Virus record (IMG/VR): IMGVR_UViG_3300033149_006339
Coordinates: 1 to 27,175 of that record
Length of the DNA stretch: 27,175 nt
Source: a virus
Direction: 5' to 3' (one strand)
Position numbers and translations under genes: made by a program. Each line of letters begins with the position of its first letter. The first letter of the stretch is position 1. The notes under the pieces were generated by a model. That model was not told the DNA's origin. It ran no database searches and saw only the letters and a list, made by a program, of their open reading frames with translations. Shown in pieces: positions 9,436 through 26,996 of this stretch.

Positions 9436-11426
9436 GTCGCTGGCATCCCAACACTAAGATTTATTCTGGGCCTCTCAACCCTTCTTTCTGCCGGAGGCGA
9501 AGTAATGGTTCCCTCTGTCCTTCTTCCTCTTCCTTCTGAAAGCTGTTCCTGACCTAACCCCCTAACAGGCTTAACTTTCTTAAATAATTTATCAGAATTT
9601 TCCTCCCAATTAACCGCAAATCTCTCACCCAAGTAAGCCCAATCAACCTCAATACCCTTATCTGGCCTATCAAACAACATAACATCAGCCAGCATTTCTC
9701 TAAACATAAGCTTACTTGTGGGTGAGGTTCTTTTTTCTCGCGGTATAATAGAAACATTAAACTGATAACTTAAATTCTTAATAACATCAGCATTTAATTC
9801 TACAATTCTAGTGGGAATTCCTGTTTCTTGGCTAACCCTTTCCTCTTCTTTAAACAACTCAAAAGCACTCTTAGTTTCATCAGTTACCTTTACTTTTCTT
9901 TGTCCAACACCAACTCCACTAATAGGAATTTTCCTACTAAAGGATCTGAATTTTCTCTTCAAAACTCCTTTAACTTCATCGATTACCTCATCCACCGGAT
10001 CAAACCAATGTTCAAAAATATTCTTAATCCTCAAAATAGATAATTTCTTTTCAAGCATAGCCATAACAAATATAACCAAACCAAGCACCAGCCGAGCCTG
10101 CCTCTGAACTTCAATTATCTGAGTGGCAGTCGGCGTTCCTTGTGGTTGCTGACCCGTAAATGTAGGATTAACCGTTAATTGATCAATATTATTTTTAATA
10201 ATTTCCAGAACAGCCGCTTCAGCATTGGTCAATCCCCTAGCATCGGGCAACATAGGCTTTAATTGATCTGGATCAACACCATGGGAAATAACTCCCGGCA
10301 TCAAAACCCTTGAAGACAAAACCCTTCCAGTTAAGTTACCCAATGGCGGTTTAAACGATTGCTGAGTTTTCAAAACCATCAATCTTAACATTTCATCCCA
10401 AACAGCAACCTGAAGACGAGTAACAGAAGGAAATGATTTACCATAAGCAAAGTGCGGAGAAATTATTGAAAAAACTTGTTTCACTATTGAATAATCGCCA
10501 TGCTTCCAAGGCATAGGAAATCCAATAGGCAACATCGGAATAGAGTTTATTATTATTTGAAACTCGTTATTGGGCTTATCCTGATATTTAATAATTTCCA
10601 CCTGTTCATTCCTAATATCAGTTAAAAGCCAATTAGAATTATAAAGAGTATTCTCCCCTTCTTTCGAGGGCTGAAAATTCTTTCTATATTTACTCACATA
10701 TTTCCATCTCTCCCAAGTGCCATAAATTTGTTCAGCCACCGAATAAGGCAAAATCTCAACAGTAAAAATATACGGTTGTTTATCCATTTCAAACTGGGTA
10801 ATATCTCCAAGATAAACTTTTTCATTTTGTATTATTTCTCTTGAGCAACCCTCAAACACTTTTTCTAATCTCTGAGTCCATTTAGCTGTACTACCATCAA
10901 AAGATTTAGTAAACGTTTTTTTAATTCCTATTTTTTCAACCCAATCCTCATTAACAAAAACAGTTCCTTGTTCCATTAAGGTATACTGCCTCAACAACTT
11001 CTTTTCTTCGTCCTTATCCAATTCTTCTGTTTTCCAAATAATATCCTCTATAGACTGCCCCAAACCCGCAATTTCAATATTATCCTTATCATAAACATTA
11101 ACATCAGGACTTAAATCTAAATTATTAACTGCGGCTAAAATAGCAAACATTTTTTGCCTTATAGTCCCTGATTGATAATTGGTTTCTTCCCTATTCTGCC
11201 TCGGCTGAATATAAGAATTAGCAAGTTTCCTGTTTTCCTCACAGTATTTAATATAAGTCATTCCATCAAACTCAACTCTAGTCTGATCACGGGCATTTTT
11301 CGCTCTTGTTAATTTTTTCTGTAAATTACTTAAATATTCCTTTTCTTCGTCGGTATATTCCGGTTTCAAAGTTTCCTTGGGTTTTTCAAGTAATTGTGAT
11401 TTTAATTTTAAATCTTTTTCTGCCAT
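9432..11426 (-). CDS. Portal protein
   Basis: This is a 664-residue protein immediately downstream of TerL. Size, position and composition fit a large portal of the P22-like or podovirus type. The N-terminal region (about 30-130) has the helical clip-like segment FDGMTYIKYCEENRKLANSYIQPRQNRE. The centre (about 320-470) carries a long hydrophobic helix before many polar residues. Residues about 400-450 (LEIIKNNIDQLTVNPTFTGQQPQGTPTATQI) look like the wing/crown region, where GT-x-TATQI is a motif seen in many portals. The start is ATG 11426, after a palindrome array. It ends in ATGA overlap with the next gene. No frameshift is seen. Confidence 0.85.
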   Translation of the reverse strand: MAEKDLKLKSQLLEKPKETLKPEYTDEEKEYLSNLQKKLTRAKNARDQTRVEFDGMTYIKYCEENRKLANSYIQPRQNREETNYQSGTIRQKMFAILAAVNNLDLSPDVNVYDKDNIEIAGLGQSIEDIIWKTEELDKDEEKKLLRQYTLMEQGTVFVNEDWVEKIGIKKTFTKSFDGSTAKWTQRLEKVFEGCSREIIQNEKVYLGDITQFEMDKQPYIFTVEILPYSVAEQIYGTWERWKYVSKYRKNFQPSKEGENTLYNSNWLLTDIRNEQVEIIKYQDKPNNEFQIIINSIPMLPIGFPMPWKHGDYSIVKQVFSIISPHFAYGKSFPSVTRLQVAVWDEMLRLMVLKTQQSFKPPLGNLTGRVLSSRVLMPGVISHGVDPDQLKPMLPDARGLTNAEAAVLEIIKNNIDQLTVNPTFTGQQPQGTPTATQIIEVQRQARLVLGLVIFVMAMLEKKLSILRIKNIFEHWFDPVDEVIDEVKGVLKRKFRSFSRKIPISGVGVGQRKVKVTDETKSAFELFKEEERVSQETGIPTRIVELNADVIKNLSYQFNVSIIPREKRTSPTSKLMFREMLADVMLFDRPDKGIEVDWAYLGERFAVNWEENSDKLFKKVKPVRGLGQEQLSEGRGRRTEGTITSPPAERRVERPRINLSVGMPAT

Positions 11427-13470: not shown

Positions 13471-13519
13471 GTAAATAAATTTACAAAATTAATTGATAAA
13501 TAAAAGTTAATTGATTAAC
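13471..13519 (+). repeat. Palindrome array upstream of TerS
   Basis: GTAAATAAATTTAC (13471-13484) and GTTAATTGATTAAC (13506-13519) match the GTnnATnnATnnAC rule. A decayed unit (13488-13501) lies between them at the 17-bp period. The array sits 11 to 60 nt before the TerS start codon, between it and a terminator. Confidence 0.7.
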
Positions 13520-13522
13520 AAA

Positions 13523-13547
13523 AACCCCAAGGATGAACCTTGAGGTT
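13523..13547 (-). terminator. Rho-independent terminator before terS
   Basis: On the minus strand AACCTCAAGG pairs with CCTTGGGGTT (10 bp including one G-U), with a 5-nt loop, followed by TTTGTT. It would end leftward transcription coming from upstream just before the terS leader, so packaging genes would need readthrough or their own promoter. A candidate promoter on the minus strand is TAGATT-17-TATAAT at 13640-13612. Confidence 0.7.
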
Positions 13548-13567
13548 AATGTCAGGTAATCTGAATA

Positions 13568-13754
13568 TAGAAACCATCAACTTTTCGGGCAGATTATTAA
13601 ACACAAATAAAATTATATTTTTTTCACTACGCAGAATCTATACGATGGCCAGCGATCGCATAATTCTCCGTAATGAAAAATCAATAAAGTTAATTAATCA
13701 ACAAAGTTGATCAATCAACAATTTTATTAACAATCTACCTATGGATGGTTTCTA
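13568..13754. repeat. Nested inverted-repeat region (possible pac site or origin)
   Basis: Three nested arm pairs share one centre. The outer pair is 13568-13578 with 13744-13754 (11 bp perfect). The middle pair is 13591-13600 with 13727-13736 (9 of 10). The inner pair is 13620-13637 with 13663-13680 (16 of 18). The inner loop contains GCGATCGC. It lies between TerS and the nuclease gene, with no ORF. This is the usual place of a packaging initiation site, but a replication origin or structured RNA is equally possible. Confidence 0.6.
13689..13719 (+). repeat. Two-unit palindrome array
   Basis: GTTAATTAATCAAC (13689-13702) and GTTGATCAATCAAC (13706-13719) are separated by AAA (17-bp period). 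They lie inside the nested inverted-repeat region, in the right half. The first unit has one mismatched arm position. Confidence 0.7.
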
Positions 13755-13755
13755 C

Positions 13756-13785
13756 GTATCGCTAGTACACCAACCCTAACGATAC
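13756..13785 (+). other. Stem-loop with ACACCAA loop
   Basis: GTATCG (13756-13761) pairs with CGATAC (13780-13785). After one mismatch, TAG pairs with CTA, leaving the 10-nt loop TACACCAACC. The loop resembles the ATACACCARA loops at 15438, 17794, 19066 and 19441, but shifted by one position. The transcribed strand is not known here. Confidence 0.5.
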
Positions 13786-13811
13786 ATCATACCTATTATG
13801 AAGTATATATC

Positions 13812-14202: not shown

Positions 14203-14253
14203 GTTGATAAATCACGAGCATGGATGGGGATTTTTCCCTAGAAATAAAGGAAA

Positions 14254-14309
14254 GGGAGTTGGGGATTGGGAGTTGGGGATTGGGAGTTGGGAGTTGGGAG
14301 TTGGGGATT
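14254..14309 (+). repeat. G-rich heptamer tandem array (8 units)
   Basis: Eight contiguous 7-bp units follow the order GGGAGTT, GGGGATT, GGGAGTT, GGGGATT, then three GGGAGTT, then GGGGATT. Every unit has three or four Gs, so G-quadruplex formation is possible on this strand. It lies in the divergent non-coding region between the leftward nuclease gene and the rightward early genes. A role in replication initiation or control is possible; heptamer arrays of this kind also occur as neutral repeats in other bacteria. Confidence 0.85.
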
Positions 14310-14371
14310 GAAAATTATTGGTCTTGACTTTTTCCTAAGAGCAGGTTCTAATACAGATAGCTGATTCTTAT

Positions 14372-14619: not shown

Positions 14620-15017
14620 AGAAACATAAAATCTTCCTAATGATGTCGGATCGTGAAAAGGAAATCTTGGAAGCTATTAAGGAGAAATTAGGTGGTAATA
14701 CCTCTGAAATTATTAGAGGACTTATTAGAGAGAAATATGTCAAGATGTTTCCTGAATATACTCAAGCTAAGAAAGAGAAGACTCCTAGACAGAAATTTTT
14801 TGATTCTCTTGAGTTACAGGAGCCTAAGAAACTTTGTGAATTTTTAGGTGGTGAGATAGTGATAGATGAGGGAATAGAAAAGTGTTTTAAAGGTAAAGTA
14901 ACTCCTTATGGTAGAAGTGGAACTTATTTAGATTTAAAGAAAAGTGTTTTGGTTCCAGAGATAAAGGCCAGATTTAATGCTGGTGAGATAGATATACCAG
15001 AAGAATTTTTAAAATAA
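14613..15017 (+). CDS. Ribbon-helix-helix regulator
   Basis: This is a 134-residue protein counted from ATG 14613; the upstream in-frame TTG (14589) lies inside the promoter and is rejected. Residues 3-11 form a short strand (KKHKIFLMM), 12-26 a helix (SDREKEILEAIKEKL) and 29-44 the second helix (NTSEIIRGLIREKYVK), the classic MetJ/Arc/CopG fold with the N-T-S-E-I-I motif. The C-terminal 80 residues (about 55-134) are an unrecognised domain with KLCEFLGGEIVID and GRSGTYLDLKK. It is the first gene of the rightward region, under an operator-bearing promoter and closed by a terminator at 15043-15072, so it is probably a phage repressor or early regulator. Confidence 0.75.
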   Translation: MVKKHKIFLMMSDREKEILEAIKEKLGGNTSEIIRGLIREKYVKMFPEYTQAKKEKTPRQKFFDSLELQEPKKLCEFLGGEIVIDEGIEKCFKGKVTPYGRSGTYLDLKKSVLVPEIKARFNAGEIDIPEEFLK

Positions 15018-15042
15018 ATTGGCCATAACATCTTTTGGCCAC

Positions 15043-15072
15043 ACCCCCCTATTTTTTGAGGGGGTCTTTTTT
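15043..15072 (+). terminator. Rho-independent terminator after RHH gene
   Basis: ACCCCC (15043-15048) pairs with GGGGGT (15060-15065), 11-nt loop, followed by CTTTTTT. It separates the regulator gene from the next promoter at 15274. From 15073 to 15273 there is no ORF I can support. The stretch holds a small hairpin (GTTAGA/TCTAAC at about 15086-15102), a CCCCTAA/TTAGGGG pair (15074-15080 with 15198-15204), and a GC-rich patch near 15115. Confidence 0.8.
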
Positions 15073-15273
15073 ACCCCTAACTTCTGTTAGATAGTCTCTA
15101 ACCTTGACCACCTTTTCGCGCGGGGGTCGGCTCGTTTTCTGTTTTTATGGAAACATTGATAAACTTTAGTAAAAAATAATAAAAAAACAAAATGATTTTT
15201 AGGGGTTAGGTAAAAATATAGTAAAAATGCGATTTTTAGGTTCGCTTTATATAATGAAATGCGTTATTAACAC

Positions 15274-15301
15274 TTGACAGATTTTCTGGGTTTGATATAC
15301 T
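15274..15301 (+). promoter_or_regulatory. Promoter for structured RNA/early transcript
   Basis: TTGACA (15274-15279), 16 nt, TATACT (15296-15301). The predicted start at A15308 coincides with the first paired base of the RNA described next. Confidence 0.75.
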
Positions 15302-15307
15302 CCCTTT

Positions 15308-15479
15308 AGAGAGTTTAAAAAAAAAGGAATTAAAAAATATAAAATATAGAGGCCAACAAGTAAGAAAAACATCTGGGCTTTAATCTATATTTTATATTCC
15401 GGCCACTAAACACTGGCCACTAAACAAGAGTTTAAACACACACCAAAGTTTAGATTCTTGTATCTCTTTTAAACTCTCT
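15308..15479 (+). ncRNA. Structured RNA closed by a 13-bp end helix
   Basis: P1 pairs 15308-15320 with 15467-15479 (13 bp, perfect). P2 pairs 15336-15350 with 15384-15398 (15 bp, perfect, 33-nt loop). P3 pairs 15424-15437 with 15448-15461 (14 bp including G-U pairs) around the 10-nt loop ACACACCAAA. A 12-nt direct repeat (GGCCACTAAACA, 15401 and 15415) lies between P2 and P3. G-U pairs appear only on this strand, so the RNA is the plus-strand one. The 5' end equals the predicted transcription start. It may be a discrete ncRNA or the first part of the leader of the gene at 15587. After it (15480-15557) only small hairpins are seen. Confidence 0.7.
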
Positions 15480-15586
15480 CCGGGAGTCGCAATTGAATAA
15501 ATTGCCCTTCTCTTTTAGGGTTTTCTCGGAGGTCAACGTAGTAAAACCTTTAAATTACCAGTTAACCGCTGGCTGGTTCATTAAAA

Positions 15587-17710: not shown

Positions 17711-17716
17711 ACCATT

Positions 17717-17766
17717 GTAGATTTATTTACTTTTGTAGATTTATTTACTTTTGTAGATTTATTTAC
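17717..17766 (+). repeat. Three-unit palindrome array (GTAGATTTATTTAC)
   Basis: Three identical units, GTAGATTTATTTAC, at 17717, 17735 and 17753, separated by TTTT (18-bp period). It belongs to the same GTnnATnnATnnAC family as those near portal and TerS, in reverse orientation (A-run on the other side). It follows the 144-aa gene stop by 6 nt. Confidence 0.8.
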
Positions 17767-17781
17767 TTTTATTTAAATTAT

Positions 17782-17815
17782 CTATTGGCTGTTATACACC
17801 AAAAACAGCTAATAG
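17782..17815 (+). ncRNA. Stem-loop with ATACACCAAA loop
   Basis: CTATTGGCTGTT (17782-17793) pairs with AACAGCTAATAG (17804-17815), 12 bp with one G-U, around the 10-nt loop ATACACCAAA. It is one of five such stem-loops in the window. The stem is unrelated in sequence to the others. Confidence 0.7.
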
Positions 17816-17878
17816 GTTGGCTAATTAACTCAATCAATCACTCGCCGGACATTTAAGTTAGGGAGTTATAATTTGGTT

Positions 17879-17909
17879 GTAGGTTTATTTACTTTGTAGG
17901 TTTATCTAC
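17879..17909 (+). repeat. Two-unit palindrome array
   Basis: GTAGGTTTATTTAC (17879-17892) and GTAGGTTTATCTAC (17896-17909), separated by TTT (17-bp period), 11 nt before the ATG at 17920. It is the second unit group of the family in this intergenic stretch. Confidence 0.7.
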
Positions 17910-17919
17910 TTTCATAATT

Positions 17920-18429: not shown

Positions 18430-19041
18430 ATGCTTTACAATAAATTTAATTTAGAAGTTAGTAAGTTTGCAGGAGATAGTTATGGTTCTAAACCAGAGTT
18501 AGGGGGAGTGTTCTTTACTTCTCGGGCGACAGCGGCAAGCGATGGTTATAAATTGATAGAAGTTAGTGTTCCAAGCGAGTTGAAGCCGGAGGAATACCCG
18601 AGTGTTAACGGAAAGAAAGCGATGAGGGGTTGCCGCCCGTTTATAGTGCCGGCGCCGGCGTTGAAGGAAATTAAGATAAATAATGGTAGTTCGTTGCCAA
18701 TATTGAATTGTATAGGTGTTGGTCATTTAGATAAGGAAAAGGTGGAGTTTTTAAATACCAACCTTGATGAGAGTGAAATTAAAACTATTAAAAAAATAGA
18801 AGCAAAGTATCCGGATTATCAGCAGTTGTTTAATCAAGAAAAGCCAGTATTGGAAATATCGGTTAATGCTAAATACTTAAAAGAAATAATGGACTTTATG
18901 AGTAAATTCGTTGATACGGGGTCAAAAGAAGTAAAAATAAAACTTTATGGTTCAAATAAGCCGATTATGTTTACAGCGGAAAATAACAGCACTCGCCAGA
19001 AAGTTCGGGCTTTGTTGATGCCGATTACTACAACTAAATAA
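18430..19041 (+). CDS. Short DNA sliding clamp-like protein
   Basis: This is a 203-residue protein, whose C-terminal part (about residues 130-200) resembles the last domain of bacterial beta clamps (DnaN): PVLEISVNAKYLKEIMDFMSKF, KEVKIKLYGSNKPIMFTAENN, then the near-terminal RALLMPI that corresponds to the Y-x-LMPM-x-L end. The N-terminal part contains RATAASDGYKLIEVSVP, like the a-TDG-y-rL strand of clamps. At 203 residues it is much shorter than DnaN (about 370), suggesting two rather than three domains. It may be a phage clamp or a clamp paralog interfering with the host clamp. No Shine-Dalgarno sequence is seen. It lies just before a large structured RNA. Confidence 0.65.
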   Translation: MLYNKFNLEVSKFAGDSYGSKPELGGVFFTSRATAASDGYKLIEVSVPSELKPEEYPSVNGKKAMRGCRPFIVPAPALKEIKINNGSSLPILNCIGVGHLDKEKVEFLNTNLDESEIKTIKKIEAKYPDYQQLFNQEKPVLEISVNAKYLKEIMDFMSKFVDTGSKEVKIKLYGSNKPIMFTAENNSTRQKVRALLMPITTTK

Positions 19042-19050
19042 GGCGCTTGA

Positions 19051-19460
19051 TGTTGCCGGTTATACATACACCAGAGTATAGTCGGCAACAATGAGGCGCT
19101 TTGTAAATTTATTTACCTTAACATCAATAATTATTAAGACAAACAGAGAATGGTTAAGTTCGGTTGTCGGTTAAACTCACCGCGCCATTAAAACTTAATG
19201 CTGGCTGTTTGCTTGAAATTATTGATTGCGCCTCAACCTTGACATCAGCTTGTTTAAGCCGGTAATGCCCTTTCCGTTAATAAGGGCTGGCGTATCGGAA
19301 ATAGACGATTGGGCATAGGGCAACCGCAGAGCTTGGGACTATGAGGGAAACCTCCTCTCAAGCGGCAACTCTATTGTGATTTACCCGGTATCACATAAAT
19401 AGAACCGGGAGCGTTGCAGAGGGGCGCAATGAGTTTAAATATACACCAAAATTTAAACTC
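19051..19460 (+). ncRNA. About 410-nt structured RNA with pseudoknot
   Basis: Elements in order are as follows. Stem-loop 19051-19090 (15 bp, two G-U; loop ATACACCAGA). Palindrome unit GTAAATTTATTTAC (19103-19116). A 22-bp helix 19123-19146 with 19205-19226 (two bulged As). A closing helix 19226-19234 with 19421-19429 (one G-U). Hairpin GCTTGGGA/TCTCAAGC (19331-19338 with 19356-19363) with an inner GAGG-GAAA-CCTC tetraloop. An H-type pseudoknot: 19375-19380 with 19390-19395, and 19384-19389 with 19404-19409. Hairpin 19431-19460 (10 bp, loop ATACACCAAA). All wobble pairs fit plus-strand RNA. There is no ORF I can support in 19042-19542. A standalone RNA or a large leader of the next genes; no match to a named class is known to me. 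Confidence 0.7.
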
Positions 19461-19542
19461 GTTAAAAATCTGTCTTTAAAATTTGAATATCAAAAGCGTC
19501 CGGCTTAAAGCGGTGAGGCGTTTTTTGGTATTCGCTTTGTTT

Positions 19543-21960: not shown

Positions 21961-22173
21961 ATGAGAAAAGAATTTCATTATTTAATGTATTGTAAAGAGT
22001 GTGGAAAAGAATTTTCGGAAAAGGAAAAAAATCCTCGTTTTCCTTATTTATGTCCGGAACATGTTGAAAAAGCTATTAAAAGAAAGAAGATGCTTGAGAG
22101 ACTTCATCGGATTCGGAAATATTCTGTGATTCTTCCGCGTTTTCTTCGTCGAGCAGGTCGCTCTCCTTTTTGA
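21961..22173 (+). CDS. Small zinc-finger protein
   Basis: This is a 70-residue frame; ATG 21985 (residue 9) is an alternative start. Pattern: MYCKECGKEFSEKEKNPRFPYLCPEHVEKAIKRKK, a C-x2-C...C-x2-H zinc-ribbon type site, followed by a lysine/arginine-rich helix. The last 33 residues are encoded antisense to the acidic tail of the ATPase gene (98-nt convergent overlap), so they look less constrained. Its role is unknown; a small accessory nucleic-acid-binding protein is inferred. Confidence 0.6.
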   Translation: MRKEFHYLMYCKECGKEFSEKEKNPRFPYLCPEHVEKAIKRKKMLERLHRIRKYSVILPRFLRRAGRSPF

Positions 22174-23353
22174 TTTTTTCAAATTTACGGACCAATTCTA
22201 TATATTTATCTTTCATTTTCCAGCGATCGCCATAGGGTCCGACACCTTTGGCTCTTTCTGCTACTTCAAGAGCAACCAATTCCTCTAATCTATATCTGAC
22301 CGTAGTGGTCGGCCGGTCTATTTTAGTGGCTAATCCGGTAGTAGTTAGTTCATTGTATTTTGCCAGTTCTTGAATTATAAGTCGCTTAGATGACGGTATT
22401 GAGTCAAGGGCTATTTTGTAAAGAATATTATGGTCTTCTGGCTGAAGTTCCATTTTGCCGGTTTCGTTGAAATTAACAACAGAAAGCGCTCTGGCCATGG
22501 TTTGTAGGGCGGCCGCCATTCTGGTTGGCATCTCCGGCGGGTAAACCTCTGTTATTTCCTGTTGGGGGCTTCTCCAGTTTCTTTCCACTTCGGATCTTAC
22601 TCTTGTTGAAAATTCAGCCAGAGATATCAGGTCTTTTTTTAATGTTTCGGGAATCTTGACTTTTTCCTTGGGTATTTCCGCGTTTTCTATATATTCCTTG
22701 GTTAAATCAGCCAGCCATCCTCTTTTTTCATCAAGTTCGCCGCTTTCTTGATTTTCCATGCTTTTGTTCGCCGCGGCTTTGGCTTCGGGTTGAATGAAAT
22801 TATAAAACAAAAATCTTTCGCCCATTGAAACATAATCCTTTTTCTTACTATGGATAGCATAGGTAGAGCCGGCAATTACCGTCACCTTGCCTGCCCACTC
22901 TTGTTTTTTGCCCGTTCCGAATTGTTTTATATATCTTCCATCGTAAATTTCTCTCATTTGAGCCATTAAAACAGATTTTGTATCTTTATTCTCTGATAAA
23001 ATTGAAGTTAAATCTTTAAATGTAATAATGCCGTTTTGTTCCTGATCGGTTCCTTTGGAAAGGTTGTGAAGTAGAGAAGCGCTTTCGCCGCCCTTGCTTA
23101 TTCCGGATAAAAATGTATTGGCGGTTAGGGTGGAAAGAGGATGAACATATTTGCATTTAGACAAAGCATTTATTATTTCGCTTTTTCCCCCAGCCGAAGG
23201 AGCCACGATAATTAGCCATATCGGATCAGATTTTAAAAGATGAGAAACATACAAGGAAACCAAGACCTTGATAATATAAGGGTCCTCCAAGAGATATACA
23301 CTTCCAAAAGCTTCTCTAAGTTTTTGAAGAGTAATTTTGTTTTTTTCTTCCAT
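22076..23353 (-). CDS. P-loop ATPase with C-terminal winged helix (replicative helicase-like)
   Basis: This is a 425-residue protein. Walker A is APSAGGKS (51-58); a Walker B-like strand is NGIITFKDL (107-115). Residues 120-200 include an AAA-like core with MAQMREIYDGRY and FGTGKKQEWAGKVTVIAGSTYAI; R in MGERFLFYNF may be the sensor/arginine finger. The C-terminal region (about 316-372) is a winged helix, TGLATKIDRPTTTVRYRLEELV, followed by an acidic low-complexity tail. This organisation fits ATPases found next to CHC2 primase domains in phages and integrated elements. It sits 4 nt downstream of such a gene, so helicase or helicase-loader function is inferred. Confidence 0.75.
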   Translation of the reverse strand: MEEKNKITLQKLREAFGSVYLLEDPYIIKVLVSLYVSHLLKSDPIWLIIVAPSAGGKSEIINALSKCKYVHPLSTLTANTFLSGISKGGESASLLHNLSKGTDQEQNGIITFKDLTSILSENKDTKSVLMAQMREIYDGRYIKQFGTGKKQEWAGKVTVIAGSTYAIHSKKKDYVSMGERFLFYNFIQPEAKAAANKSMENQESGELDEKRGWLADLTKEYIENAEIPKEKVKIPETLKKDLISLAEFSTRVRSEVERNWRSPQQEITEVYPPEMPTRMAAALQTMARALSVVNFNETGKMELQPEDHNILYKIALDSIPSSKRLIIQELAKYNELTTTGLATKIDRPTTTVRYRLEELVALEVAERAKGVGPYGDRWKMKDKYIELVRKFEKIKKESDLLDEENAEESQNISESDEVSQASSFF

Positions 23354-24115: not shown

Positions 24116-24334
24116 ATGGGTATACCTAAAGCTGTTGATAAGTCCAAAAAGAATAAGCGGAGGGGGGTTAAAAAAGATATTCATAAATATCCCTATTTAG
24201 TTGAAATTAGGAATGAATTAATATTAGATCTTAAAAAAAGAGGATTATCCACTCAAAATATATCAGTTATATTTTCGAGCGGATTGTCCAAGGGTCGAGT
24301 CAGTCAAATAATTAAAAATAAATTTAATAAATAA
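24116..24334 (+). CDS. Small HTH regulator
   Basis: This is a 72-residue basic protein. Residues 1-25 are a lysine/arginine-rich tail. Residues 30-66 contain a helix-turn-helix: EIRNELILDLKKRGLSTQNISVIFSSGLSKGRVSQII, where LSTQNIS and the recognition helix KGRVSQII fit HTH domains of phage repressors or of sigma-like proteins. It is the first gene of a rightward operon with the SSB-like and nuclease genes (gaps of 2 nt and overlap of 1 nt), under its own leaderless promoter. A transcription regulator of the replication genes or an origin-binding protein is inferred. Confidence 0.65.
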   Translation: MGIPKAVDKSKKNKRRGVKKDIHKYPYLVEIRNELILDLKKRGLSTQNISVIFSSGLSKGRVSQIIKNKFNK

Positions 24335-24336
24335 CC

Positions 24337-24789
24337 ATGACTAAAAACGACGAATTTCAAGAAGTTAAATCCTCAGTTGTTTCTTGGGGAAAAGTCGGCG
24401 ATTATATTCAGGGCACACTGGTTGATATAAGAATTCGCGAGGTTCAAGACGAAAAAAAGGGTTTGGTTAGGAAAAATGTATATGAAATTCTTGCTGATGA
24501 GGGACAATATCACGAAATCGATGAAAACAGGAATCCAGTTGAACCGCCGATTAAATGTGAAAAAAATGATTTTTATCAAGTATGGGGCGGAAGAGAGATT
24601 ATAGATAATGGTATGAGAAAAATAAAGATCGGCCAGAAAGTAAGAATTGTTTTTACAGAACAGCTTGAACCGAAAAAGAAAAATTATTCTGGATTTAAGA
24701 TTATTAAAGTATATGCCGGACCAATGGATGAAGAGTGGTTGAATAATCAATATCAAGAAGCGGAACCTGATGTTAATCCCGGATTTTAA
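24337..24789 (+). CDS. OB-fold/SSB-like protein
   Basis: This is a 150-residue protein. The body is strand-rich, as in OB folds (SWGKVGDYIQGTLVDIRIREV, NVYEILADEGQYHEI, FYQVWGGREIIDNGMRKIKIGQKVRIVFTEQL, GFKIIKVYAGPM), with aromatic residues in strands. The end is acidic (EAEPDVNPGF) and finishes with phenylalanine, like the C-terminal tip of SSB (D-D-x-I-P-F). It is directly coupled to the nuclease gene (TAATG). A single-stranded DNA-binding protein of phage recombination is inferred; the family is not certain. Confidence 0.6.
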   Translation: MTKNDEFQEVKSSVVSWGKVGDYIQGTLVDIRIREVQDEKKGLVRKNVYEILADEGQYHEIDENRNPVEPPIKCEKNDFYQVWGGREIIDNGMRKIKIGQKVRIVFTEQLEPKKKNYSGFKIIKVYAGPMDEEWLNNQYQEAEPDVNPGF

Positions 24790-25535
24790 TGAAATTAGAA
24801 TTTAAAACAAAATATAAGGTTGAATTAGCTCCTACTCTTAGCGGTCATTGGTATAAAGTTTGGAAAATAAGTCCTAAGGGCAAAGAAAAATTTATAGGAT
24901 ATTATCCTTCAAGCACGACTATTTTGTTAGCTTATCCCCAGAGTCAATATTTAACAGAGTGGATAGGAAAAGTAGGCTGGCACGAAAGTCAAAGGATTAA
25001 ATCAGAAGCCGGAGAGAAGGGAACGAGAGTCCACGCGGCGATTGACAGATTAGAGGAAGGTTATACATTGTTTGCAACAGAATATTCTTGGGAGGAATTT
25101 CATAAAATACATTCTTTTGTTAAGTGGTATAATGATTATAAACCCGAATTAATAGCAAAAGAAATTCCAGTGTTTAGCAGAAAAGGAAGATATGCCGGTC
25201 GATTAGATAGAATTTATATAATTGATGGTCAATATACTTTATTAGATTTTAAAACAAGCTCCGGAATTCATGAACATTTTCCCTTGCAGTTTGCCAGTTA
25301 TGCCAATGCAGTAGAAGAAAATACAGATATTAAAATAGTTCAAACAGCGGCTTTGCAGTTAGGGGCTAAAAATAAAAATGGATACAGGTATATTGTTTAT
25401 CCGGACTGGAAAGAGCATTATAAGATTTTTAAGCATGTAAAGAAGGTATGGGAATATGAATATTTTGATTCTAAGATCAATCCTAAAAAACCGCCAGTGT
25501 TGGATTTGCCAGACAAGCTTAAACTTGAAAAATAA
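24789..25535 (+). CDS. PD-(D/E)XK (RecB/Cas4-like) nuclease
   Basis: This is a 248-residue protein. Motifs: H82 in GTRVHAAID, E125 in AKEIPVF, D140 in YAGRLDRI, D153 and K155 in LLDFKTS, and Q167 with Y171 in QFASYANAV. This order (H, E, D, DxK, QxxxY) is that of the RecB/AddB/Cas4-type exonuclease domain. There is no helicase domain. In phages such nucleases with an SSB-like neighbour act in recombination, end resection or host-DNA breakdown. The start overlaps the SSB-like stop (TAATG), so the two are a coupled pair. No cysteines of an iron-sulphur cluster (as in Cas4) are visible. Confidence 0.85.
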   Translation: MKLEFKTKYKVELAPTLSGHWYKVWKISPKGKEKFIGYYPSSTTILLAYPQSQYLTEWIGKVGWHESQRIKSEAGEKGTRVHAAIDRLEEGYTLFATEYSWEEFHKIHSFVKWYNDYKPELIAKEIPVFSRKGRYAGRLDRIYIIDGQYTLLDFKTSSGIHEHFPLQFASYANAVEENTDIKIVQTAALQLGAKNKNGYRYIVYPDWKEHYKIFKHVKKVWEYEYFDSKINPKKPPVLDLPDKLKLEK

Positions 25536-25547
25536 TAAATTTAATTC

Positions 25548-25754
25548 ATGGGTCGATTTAATTCATTAATAAACAATAAACTTATTATGCAATATATATT
25601 TCAAGAAATTACCCAGAATCCGAATTCAGTGGATGCGCCGGTAGTTCCAAGCGAAGATCAGAACGATAATTCCTCAGAAGAAAATCAAGAGTCGACACAG
25701 GAAGAAACCCCGGCAGAAGAATCAACAGAAACCGAAACTGTATCTACTGAATAA
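25548..25754 (+). CDS. Short acidic low-complexity protein
   Basis: This is a 68-residue frame; an internal ATG at 25587 is an alternative start. After a short start, residues 20-68 are an acidic stretch rich in E, S, T and N (SEDQNDNSSEENQESTQEETPAEE). It has no globular pattern and lies 12 nt after the nuclease gene. Acidic tails of this kind can mimic DNA or bind basic partners. The role is unknown; confidence that it is translated is moderate. Confidence 0.5.
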   Translation: MGRFNSLINNKLIMQYIFQEITQNPNSVDAPVVPSEDQNDNSSEENQESTQEETPAEESTETETVSTE

Positions 25755-25762
25755 TTTAGTTC

Positions 25763-25974
25763 TTTTCAATGCCCCCGACCGGTATTCTGGATCTGAAGGG
25801 AATTATCCCTGTCACGGCTATCCTTAAAGCCGTAATCAGATCTGGAATATACGAGTCTGAATAGGGTATCAGTTTGTCTGTAGAGGACGAACACTGGATT
25901 TAAACCAGTCGCCCTTAAACCAACATAAAACAACCAAATCCTTTTATTGCCCTATTCAGAGGGGGCATTGAAAA
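25763..25974 (+). ncRNA. 212-nt multibranched structured RNA
   Basis: P1 pairs 25763-25776 with 25961-25974 (14 bp, perfect). Arm A: 25784-25796 with 25836-25848 (13 bp, two G-U), carrying two small hairpins (AGGGA/TCCCT at 25797-25810; ACGGCT/AGCCGT at 25814-25833). Arm B: 25856-25866 with 25950-25960 (11 bp, abutting P1), carrying hairpins 25872-25878 with 25886-25892 (one G-U) and ACTGG/CCAGT (25893-25897 with 25905-25909), then about 40 nt unpaired. All wobbles fit the plus strand. No ORF covers it. Unknown class. Confidence 0.75.
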
Positions 25975-26008
25975 CTAATTTTGAGAAAGCAATTTATTTT
26001 CTTAAGAA

Positions 26009-26038
26009 GGTCGTAAAGAATTTATAATTTAATTTAAA
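26009..26038 (+). promoter_or_regulatory. Repeated upstream element GGTCRTAAARAATTTATAATTTAA
   Basis: A near-identical copy occurs at 26304-26327 and a shorter one at 26990-27006 (which overlaps the end of the 97-aa gene). Each precedes a gene start by 2 to 15 nt. The TATAAT within the first two could be a -10 box, but no TTGACA-like -35 lies at the right distance. It may be a shared promoter or translation signal. Confidence 0.4.
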
Positions 26039-26041
26039 TCT

Positions 26042-26284
26042 ATGGAATTAAAATACTATCAATGTGAAATTTGTGAAAAGAGAGTATTTTCTAAAGAAGA
26101 GTTAAGAAAAGAAAATTGGTTAGAAATGGGGGGTGGAATGTTAGGAGGTATAATGGTTTGGTTAGATAAACCTCGTTGTAGGGGTGGTGGTTATATCCAT
26201 CGTGTTGGACTAACGAGTAGAGAATATCATTTTTGCTCAATAGATTGTTTAATAAAAGCATTAAAAGCTAAGAAAAGTATTTAA
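26042..26284 (+). CDS. Small zinc-binding protein
   Basis: This is an 80-residue protein. Cysteine pairs: CEICEK near residue 8 (C-x2-C) and FCSIDC near 65 (C-x4-C), with another C in PRCRGGG around 45. The four-cysteine spacing suggests a zinc ribbon or treble clef. The middle has a glycine-rich segment (GGGMLGGIMVWLDKP) and a basic loop. I do not recognise the family. A repeated upstream element precedes it. Confidence 0.55.
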   Translation: MELKYYQCEICEKRVFSKEELRKENWLEMGGGMLGGIMVWLDKPRCRGGGYIHRVGLTSREYHFCSIDCLIKALKAKKSI

Positions 26285-26335
26285 TTATAATTTAATTTAA
26301 AAGGGTCATAAAAATTTATAATTTAAATAATTCCT

Positions 26336-26659
26336 ATGTCTTACTGGTTTGAAACAAAAAAATTAAGAGTTGGTAAAGAAAAAGATAGAAGAAGAAAATT
26401 AACCGATGAAGAAAGACAGACTATTAAAGATTTATATCAGATGGGTTTTAAAATTAGAGAAATTGCTAGAATATTTAAGAAAAGATGTTGTAGACGAAAT
26501 ATACAATTTATTCTTTTTCCAGAAAGGTTAAAAAGACAATATGTTTATAGAAAAGAAAGAAATTGGGATTATGATAAAGAAAGACATAAAAAAGGTATGA
26601 AAAGTTACAGGAATTATCTAAAAAGTATTTATGGTTTAATAGGGAAAGGAATTACTTAA
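26336..26659 (+). CDS. HTH-containing small basic protein
   Basis: This is a 107-residue protein. The N-terminal half (about 15-48) is an HTH: RKLTDEERQTIKDLYQMGFKIREIARIFK, a resolvase-like or homeodomain-like helix-turn-helix, then a basic stretch (KKRCCRRNIQFILFPERLKRQ). The C-terminal half (about 70-100) contains the repeated-looking pattern RNWDYDKERHKKGMKSYRNYLK. The C-terminal part resembles small proteins common in viral metagenomes. It may bind DNA; no nuclease motif (HNH) is visible. Confidence 0.55.
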   Translation: MSYWFETKKLRVGKEKDRRRKLTDEERQTIKDLYQMGFKIREIARIFKKRCCRRNIQFILFPERLKRQYVYRKERNWDYDKERHKKGMKSYRNYLKSIYGLIGKGIT

Positions 26660-26702
26660 TTCTGAAATTATAAGTTATAAAAAATAAATCTTCAGAATAA
26701 AT

Positions 26703-26996
26703 ATGAATATCAAAAACATTAAAGATTTAAAAACTATATCAAAAGCAATTTGGGAAGAGGTTAGAAAACAAGCAAAACCAGACGGGGTTCATATTCAACC
26801 TGTAATCTATCCCGATGGTAATTTAGTAATAGATGCTGATATAGAAATAAACAATAAAAGATATGCCAAGTGTATTGAATTCCCTAAAAACTACAAAGAT
26901 TTTTCTTCTACTGAATTGAAAAAAGTTATTAAAAATTTAGTAAAAGAATTAAGAAATATTTGTTTAGAAACTAAAAAATTATTAACAAAGTCGTAA
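26703..26996 (+). CDS. Unrecognised 97-aa early protein
   Basis: This is a 97-residue protein, lysine/isoleucine-rich, mixed alpha/beta: a helix (about 1-25, KDLKTISKAIWEEVRKQ), strands (HIQPVIYPDGNLVIDADIEIN...AKCIEFP) and a C-terminal helix (TELKKVIKNLVKELRNICLE). No family is recognised. A hairpin (TTCTGA/TCAGAA) precedes its start. The stop overlaps the third copy of the upstream repeat. Confidence 0.55.
   Translation: MNIKNIKDLKTISKAIWEEVRKQAKPDGVHIQPVIYPDGNLVIDADIEINNKRYAKCIEFPKNYKDFSSTELKKVIKNLVKELRNICLETKKLLTKS

Follow-up and report, generated by a model that had tools for sequence, protein, structure and literature searches.

ROOL and GOLLD are elaborate structured phage RNAs of unknown function, and the 212-nt element analysed here resembles them in both respects (PMC12286853). 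As described there, many GOLLDs exceed 800 nt, and they often lie near tRNAs, whereas the DNA studied here contains no tRNA or tmRNA (0 ARAGORN matches) and no match to the Rfam models of ROOL or GOLLD. The sRNAs derived from mRNA 3' ends (PMC9438474) are closer in position, since the element, too, lies on the 3' side of an operon with no promoter of its own seen, but it has no terminator poly-U end. Correia/NEMIS, ERIC and RPE elements are, like ours, short sequences with terminal inverted repeats whose transcripts fold by pairing of the 5' and 3' ends, and it has been suggested that the NEMIS transcripts of Neisseria serve as substrates for RNase III, with effects on neighbouring mRNAs (PMC2229807). 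Compared by description with that account, the element differs in its single copy, its length of 212 bp with two branched arms, and its ends (TTTTC...GAAAA), which lack the 5'-TA termini of the Correia/NEMIS kind and any abutting target duplication. Its kind, a structured phage or 3' UTR RNA, may be called already known, with no described family matched.

The window, that is, the whole stretch of DNA analysed, comprises all 27,175 bases of the viral contig in record IMGVR_UViG_3300033149_006339. Its leftward genes are structural and packaging genes, with terminase and capsid assigned from ORFs and PHROG/Pfam matches and a 664-aa ORF that we read as the portal; its rightward genes are replication-type and include an SNF2 helicase, an integrase-like recombinase, and an exonuclease. 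The element, at 25763-25974 on the + strand, sits in a 287-nt gap (25755-26041) directly behind the replication-type operon. The features of this region are listed below, with the gene run taken from ORFs and the arms and hairpins from the MFE structure and the helix list.

24116-25754, +, upstream gene run: HTH-like protein, conserved 150-aa protein, exonuclease, small acidic protein
24789-25535, +, phage exonuclease gene (PHROG 298, E 2e-32)
25548-25754, +, small acidic protein gene; stop codon 8 nt before P1
25763-25776, +, 5' strand of P1, the 14-bp closing helix; perfect inverted repeat, pair probability 0.95-0.99
25780-25853, +, arm A: P2 carrying hairpins P2a and P2b
25780-25796/25836-25853, +, P2: 17 bp, one bulge, three G-U pairs
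25797-25801/25806-25810, +, P2a hairpin of arm A
25814-25819/25828-25833, +, P2b hairpin of arm A
25856-25960, +, arm B: P3 carrying P3a and P3b
25856-25868/25948-25960, +, P3: 13 bp with an 11-bp perfect core
25872-25879/25885-25892, +, P3a hairpin of arm B
25893-25897/25905-25909, +, P3b hairpin of arm B
25910-25947, +, 38-nt A/C-rich strand inside arm B with a single G; predicted unpaired in MFE and centroid
25961-25974, +, 3' strand of P1; 100% complementary to the 5' strand, adjoining the P3 3' strand with no gap
26000-26041, +, A/T-rich leader of the next gene, containing the motif GTCGTAAAGAATTTATAATTT
26042-26284, +, next gene downstream; start 67 nt past the end of the element

A sequence-only reading had placed the element behind a small acidic protein gene, which is correct, and in a gap free of ORFs, which holds for the + strand (none of at least 40 aa) but not for the - strand, where a 55-aa TTG ORF (25766-25933) without a PHROG match occurs. 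The GC content of the element is 0.43, compared with 0.19-0.37 in the measured neighbouring genes and gap pieces. Scanned as a pattern, GTCGTAAAGAATTTATAATTT was not above chance. A similar leader, GTCGTAAARAATTTAT, precedes successive downstream genes at 26009, 26304, and 26990 (+), with a pattern count not above shuffles.

Folding of 25763-25974 (+) gave an MFE of -88.8 kcal/mol and an MFE structure identical to the centroid. Shuffles of the element had a mean of -47.8 (sd 4.3), and 0 of 200 were as stable (z -9.59); with 0-200 nt of flank added, the mean pair probability was 0.95-0.96. An energy scan of the window and phage loci, some of which overlap or duplicate one another, covered 916,836 bases in 8,511 windows of 212 nt (17,022 strand-windows), 13 loci having been dropped beforehand (L001, L003-L010, L015, L016, L106, and L107). 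The element had the lowest composition-corrected energy of all; the second-ranked fold, at 10177 (+) of L097, was rejected as a structured RNA, being a coding Cys-rich repeat. When the whole window was dinucleotide-shuffled 100 times, 8 of the shuffles contained some perfect inverted repeat of 14 bp within 250 nt, so the closing helix alone is not decisive; the nested helix set is. The compact, closed, multibranched fold with a perfect 14-bp closing helix proposed from the sequence was thus confirmed, as were its two arms, whereas the five further helices it counted are in fact six (P2, P2a, P2b, P3, P3a, and P3b). Because the 3' strands of P1 and P3 are contiguous, these helices can stack end to end, and we infer that they would form one 27-bp rod.

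The assignment of a strand is less clear-cut. That all wobbles fit one strand was borne out, with 6/6 G-U pairs compatible with the + strand. However, both the - strand of the element (-87.1 kcal/mol, z -8.75) and single-stranded DNA (z -8.56) come close to it in folding, which makes the strand evidence weak; in this model-based comparison the + strand is favoured.

No Rfam 15 family matched the window at the gathering threshold, in keeping with the earlier view that the RNA belongs to no known class, and a search of 25600-26100 with E up to 10 returned only chance-level matches, the best far below gathering. A fold this extreme that has no Rfam relative makes the element a promising candidate for an RNA with a function in the phage. 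Retron ncRNAs are closed by an a1/a2 helix; no reverse transcriptase was found among the seven neighbouring proteins (24116-26996) with PHROGs and Pfam. In consensus scans, which miss other promoter types, there was no sigma-70-like promoter within 200 nt upstream of the element, nor did anything terminator-like follow it. Read-through from upstream is thus the simplest source of a transcript.

We tentatively prefer the explanation, to which we give somewhat less than an even chance, that the element forms a folded 3' UTR on the mRNA of the replication-type operon, whose last gene is that of the acidic protein, and that the P1/P3 rod is protective or cut by RNase III. Read-through from this operon would yield a + strand transcript, which would fold as predicted, with P1 and P3 presumably stacked over 27 bp along an uninterrupted 3' strand and the forked arm A branching off the rod. 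The rod would either block 3' exonucleases or, on the model of the NEMIS proposal, be cut by RNase III. Either way, the mRNA of the operon would gain a fixed 3' end and be insulated from the separately led downstream genes; if RNase III cuts, the folded piece would persist as a by-product RNA. A fold far beyond chance and robust to flanks speaks for this, as do its start 8 nt past the stop codon that closes a + strand gene run, the wobbles that all suit that strand, the GC content above that of the measured neighbours, the lack of anything promoter-like in the 200 nt upstream, and the downstream genes' possession of their own leaders. On the other hand, the - strand and DNA fold nearly as well, no terminator-like site follows the element, a 212-nt two-armed fold is more than a simple protective 3' end needs, and RNase III cutting enters by analogy only.

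The location 67 nt upstream of the gene at 26042-26284, on the same strand, would also suit a role in controlling that gene, as its 5' leader or as a riboswitch-like element. We regard this as very unlikely, since no Rfam riboswitch matches, no promoter-like site lies ahead, and a separate A/T-rich leader intervenes; nor is there a terminator-like site between element and gene.

To the sequence-only reading the element looked like a discrete phage RNA, which was not borne out by the flanks, devoid of promoter-like and terminator-like sites, or by Rfam. In its fuller form, this would be a trans-acting RNA, expressed alone or cut from the operon mRNA, that works, by pairing or protein binding, through the 38-nt A/C-rich strand or through loops of the arms. 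The compact closed fold does offer an accessible single-stranded region, and the phage may well use structured RNAs, because it has other strongly folded gaps, one of them with a promoter and a terminator (see below). As an antisense to 41 of the phage's own start regions, however, the 38-nt strand reached a best value of -15.1, which 154 of 200 shuffles equalled or bettered, and no relative was found; a discrete trans-acting RNA is a serious rival, but we consider it rather unlikely.

With exonuclease profiles we found two phages close to this one: L015/L095, at 70% identity, and L016/L096, at 57%. A profile of the AAA-type protein (22076-23353) led to these two contigs and to no others. They have in common with the window the 150-aa protein encoded near the exonuclease (30% with L015). 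In the window, L015, and L016 alike, the exonuclease is followed by a small acidic ORF, but homology between the acidic proteins of the window and L015 was tested and not seen, so it is the exonuclease and the 150-aa protein that establish the correspondence of place. The distance from the acidic gene to the next start is so short, 4 nt in L015 and about 30-65 nt in L016, that neither has a counterpart of the element there. Nothing resembling it was found behind the exonuclease genes of these two nearest phages, and it is therefore not a conserved part of the operon, a point that also weighs against the 3' UTR explanation.

In phages, blastn of the element gave no match, and in plasmids only a 22-nt A/T-rich match to Borrelia/Borreliella plasmids (E 0.8). 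We ran the covariance search that the sequence-only reading had suggested with R1, a model built from a single sequence, the element, and no credible relative emerged. Over 100 sources (0.92 Mb of phage loci), namely the window and 99 of 102 loci, with L001, L015, and L016 omitted as contained in others, R1 found the element itself and one 11.9-bit match (E 1.5). On whole records it matched 1 of 10, the element's own, and nothing elsewhere in the records of the two near phages. With filters off, R1 aligned to 15006-15216 of the window (211 nt, 11.8 bits, E 0.011), which we rejected as a paralogue because the alignment loses most of P1, P2, and P3 and the stretch folds only at z -2.5. Genome draws, which were arbitrary as to host, gave 0/8, 0/13, 0/261, 1/257, 0/259, and 0/257 in 1,055 genome searches with some genomes shared; the lone match, a 48-nt partial with E 0.0099, was rejected as expected by chance over 257 genomes, and the sequence around it looks to us like a coding gene. 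Scans for relatives with the single exonuclease, SNF2 helicase, and phage AAA protein brought nothing new, and neither did terminase scans, with one 4,985-base contig (L002). In the phylum of the genome of L006, the AAA-type protein profile matched in 2/251 genomes, and in 0/247 and 0/249 further on; within one order it matched in 2/156, one already among the 2/251. Two of the three loci concerned, L110 being the third, are AAA proteins without the phage's neighbouring genes and were discarded as a trace of the host. With no sequenced homologues, comparative methods would miss such an RNA.

An RNA fold would also follow from inverted-repeat make-up if the element were a passenger, a MITE-kind DNA element with terminal inverted repeats inserted behind the acidic gene. 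Its perfect, 100% complementary 14-bp terminal repeat, its GC content above the surroundings, and its absence from the corresponding place in L015 and L016 would all agree with this, and a 6-nt TAATTT lies beside both ends. The TAATTT copies, however, do not abut the repeats but stand at unequal distances from them, 5 and 1 nt, in A/T-rich surroundings, and two nested branched arms exceed the needs of a simple inverted repeat. The window holds no second copy, and no stretch of the viral collection contained both 13-nt ends, matched exactly and spaced 170-200 nt apart, these searches covering the window and that collection while MITE copies would be expected in the host genome. The left-end 18-mer had 8 genome-contig matches, about the chance expectation, and R1 matched in 0 of these 8 genomes. 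We judge a passenger unlikely, though a serious rival. Absence from relatives and raised GC would allow a recent acquisition whether the element is a 3' UTR, a discrete RNA, or a passenger; raised GC would also be expected of a selected fold in an A/T-rich genome.

Among the other folded gaps of this phage, 13522-13798 (-) has a fold of z -10.06 and lies between a nuclease gene and a gene that we read as small terminase (terS). The fold is preceded by a promoter-like TTGACT-17-TATACT (13830-13802) and closes with a terminator-like hairpin (13547-13523); over the whole region, 10 promoter-like sites were found versus 10.3 expected, which is not above shuffles. On this prediction, 13522-13798 is likely a stand-alone structured RNA gene. 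In the near phage G003, L103 5341-5542 (+) is an apparent positional counterpart. It has TTGACT-16-TATAAT, its fold (z -9.5) consists of hairpins in a row, and the last hairpin, which the terminator scan did not list, carries a T run; the two look like occupants of the same place. The site beside packaging genes presumably recalls, by analogy, the phi29 packaging RNA. Further multibranched folds occur at about 15299-15482 (+) and 19036-19470 (+), with z -8.0 and -6.5, the former directly after TTGACA-16-TATACT (15274-15301).

It is conceivable, though quite unlikely in our estimation, that several large multibranched RNAs in the gaps of this phage lineage form a set (13522-13798 on the - strand; about 15299-15482, 19036-19470, and 25763-25974 on the +) as a new kind of phage RNA equipment, of which the 212-nt RNA would be a member acting in folded form in replication or packaging. 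If the whole set is expressed, this small-genome phage would join the few in which large structured RNAs are known. The RNA on the terminase side, having a positional counterpart, offers a direct route to testing that expression.

Four + strand hairpins, at 15424-15461, 17780-17817, 19046-19095, and 19428-19463, have unlike stems and a common 10-nt loop, ATACACCAAA, or one change from it; they are the only ones with ACACCA in the loop among 126 strong hairpins surveyed on both strands of 106 sequences (the window and 105 loci; 978,532 bases). The first hairpin of the 13522-13798 RNA, at 13753-13788 (-), has the 10-nt loop GGUUGGUGUA, which is complementary over 7-8 nt to each of these four loops, so that kissing-loop control is possible on sequence grounds. 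By eye, repeated 14-bp palindromes of the GTARATTTATYTAC and GTTRATYRATYAAC types, which look like operators, were seen at 13480, 17715-17770, 17890-17910, and 19105, and at 13505-13725. A G-rich tandem run of GGGAGTTGGGGATT-like units at 14253-14310 (+) possibly forms a G-quadruplex.
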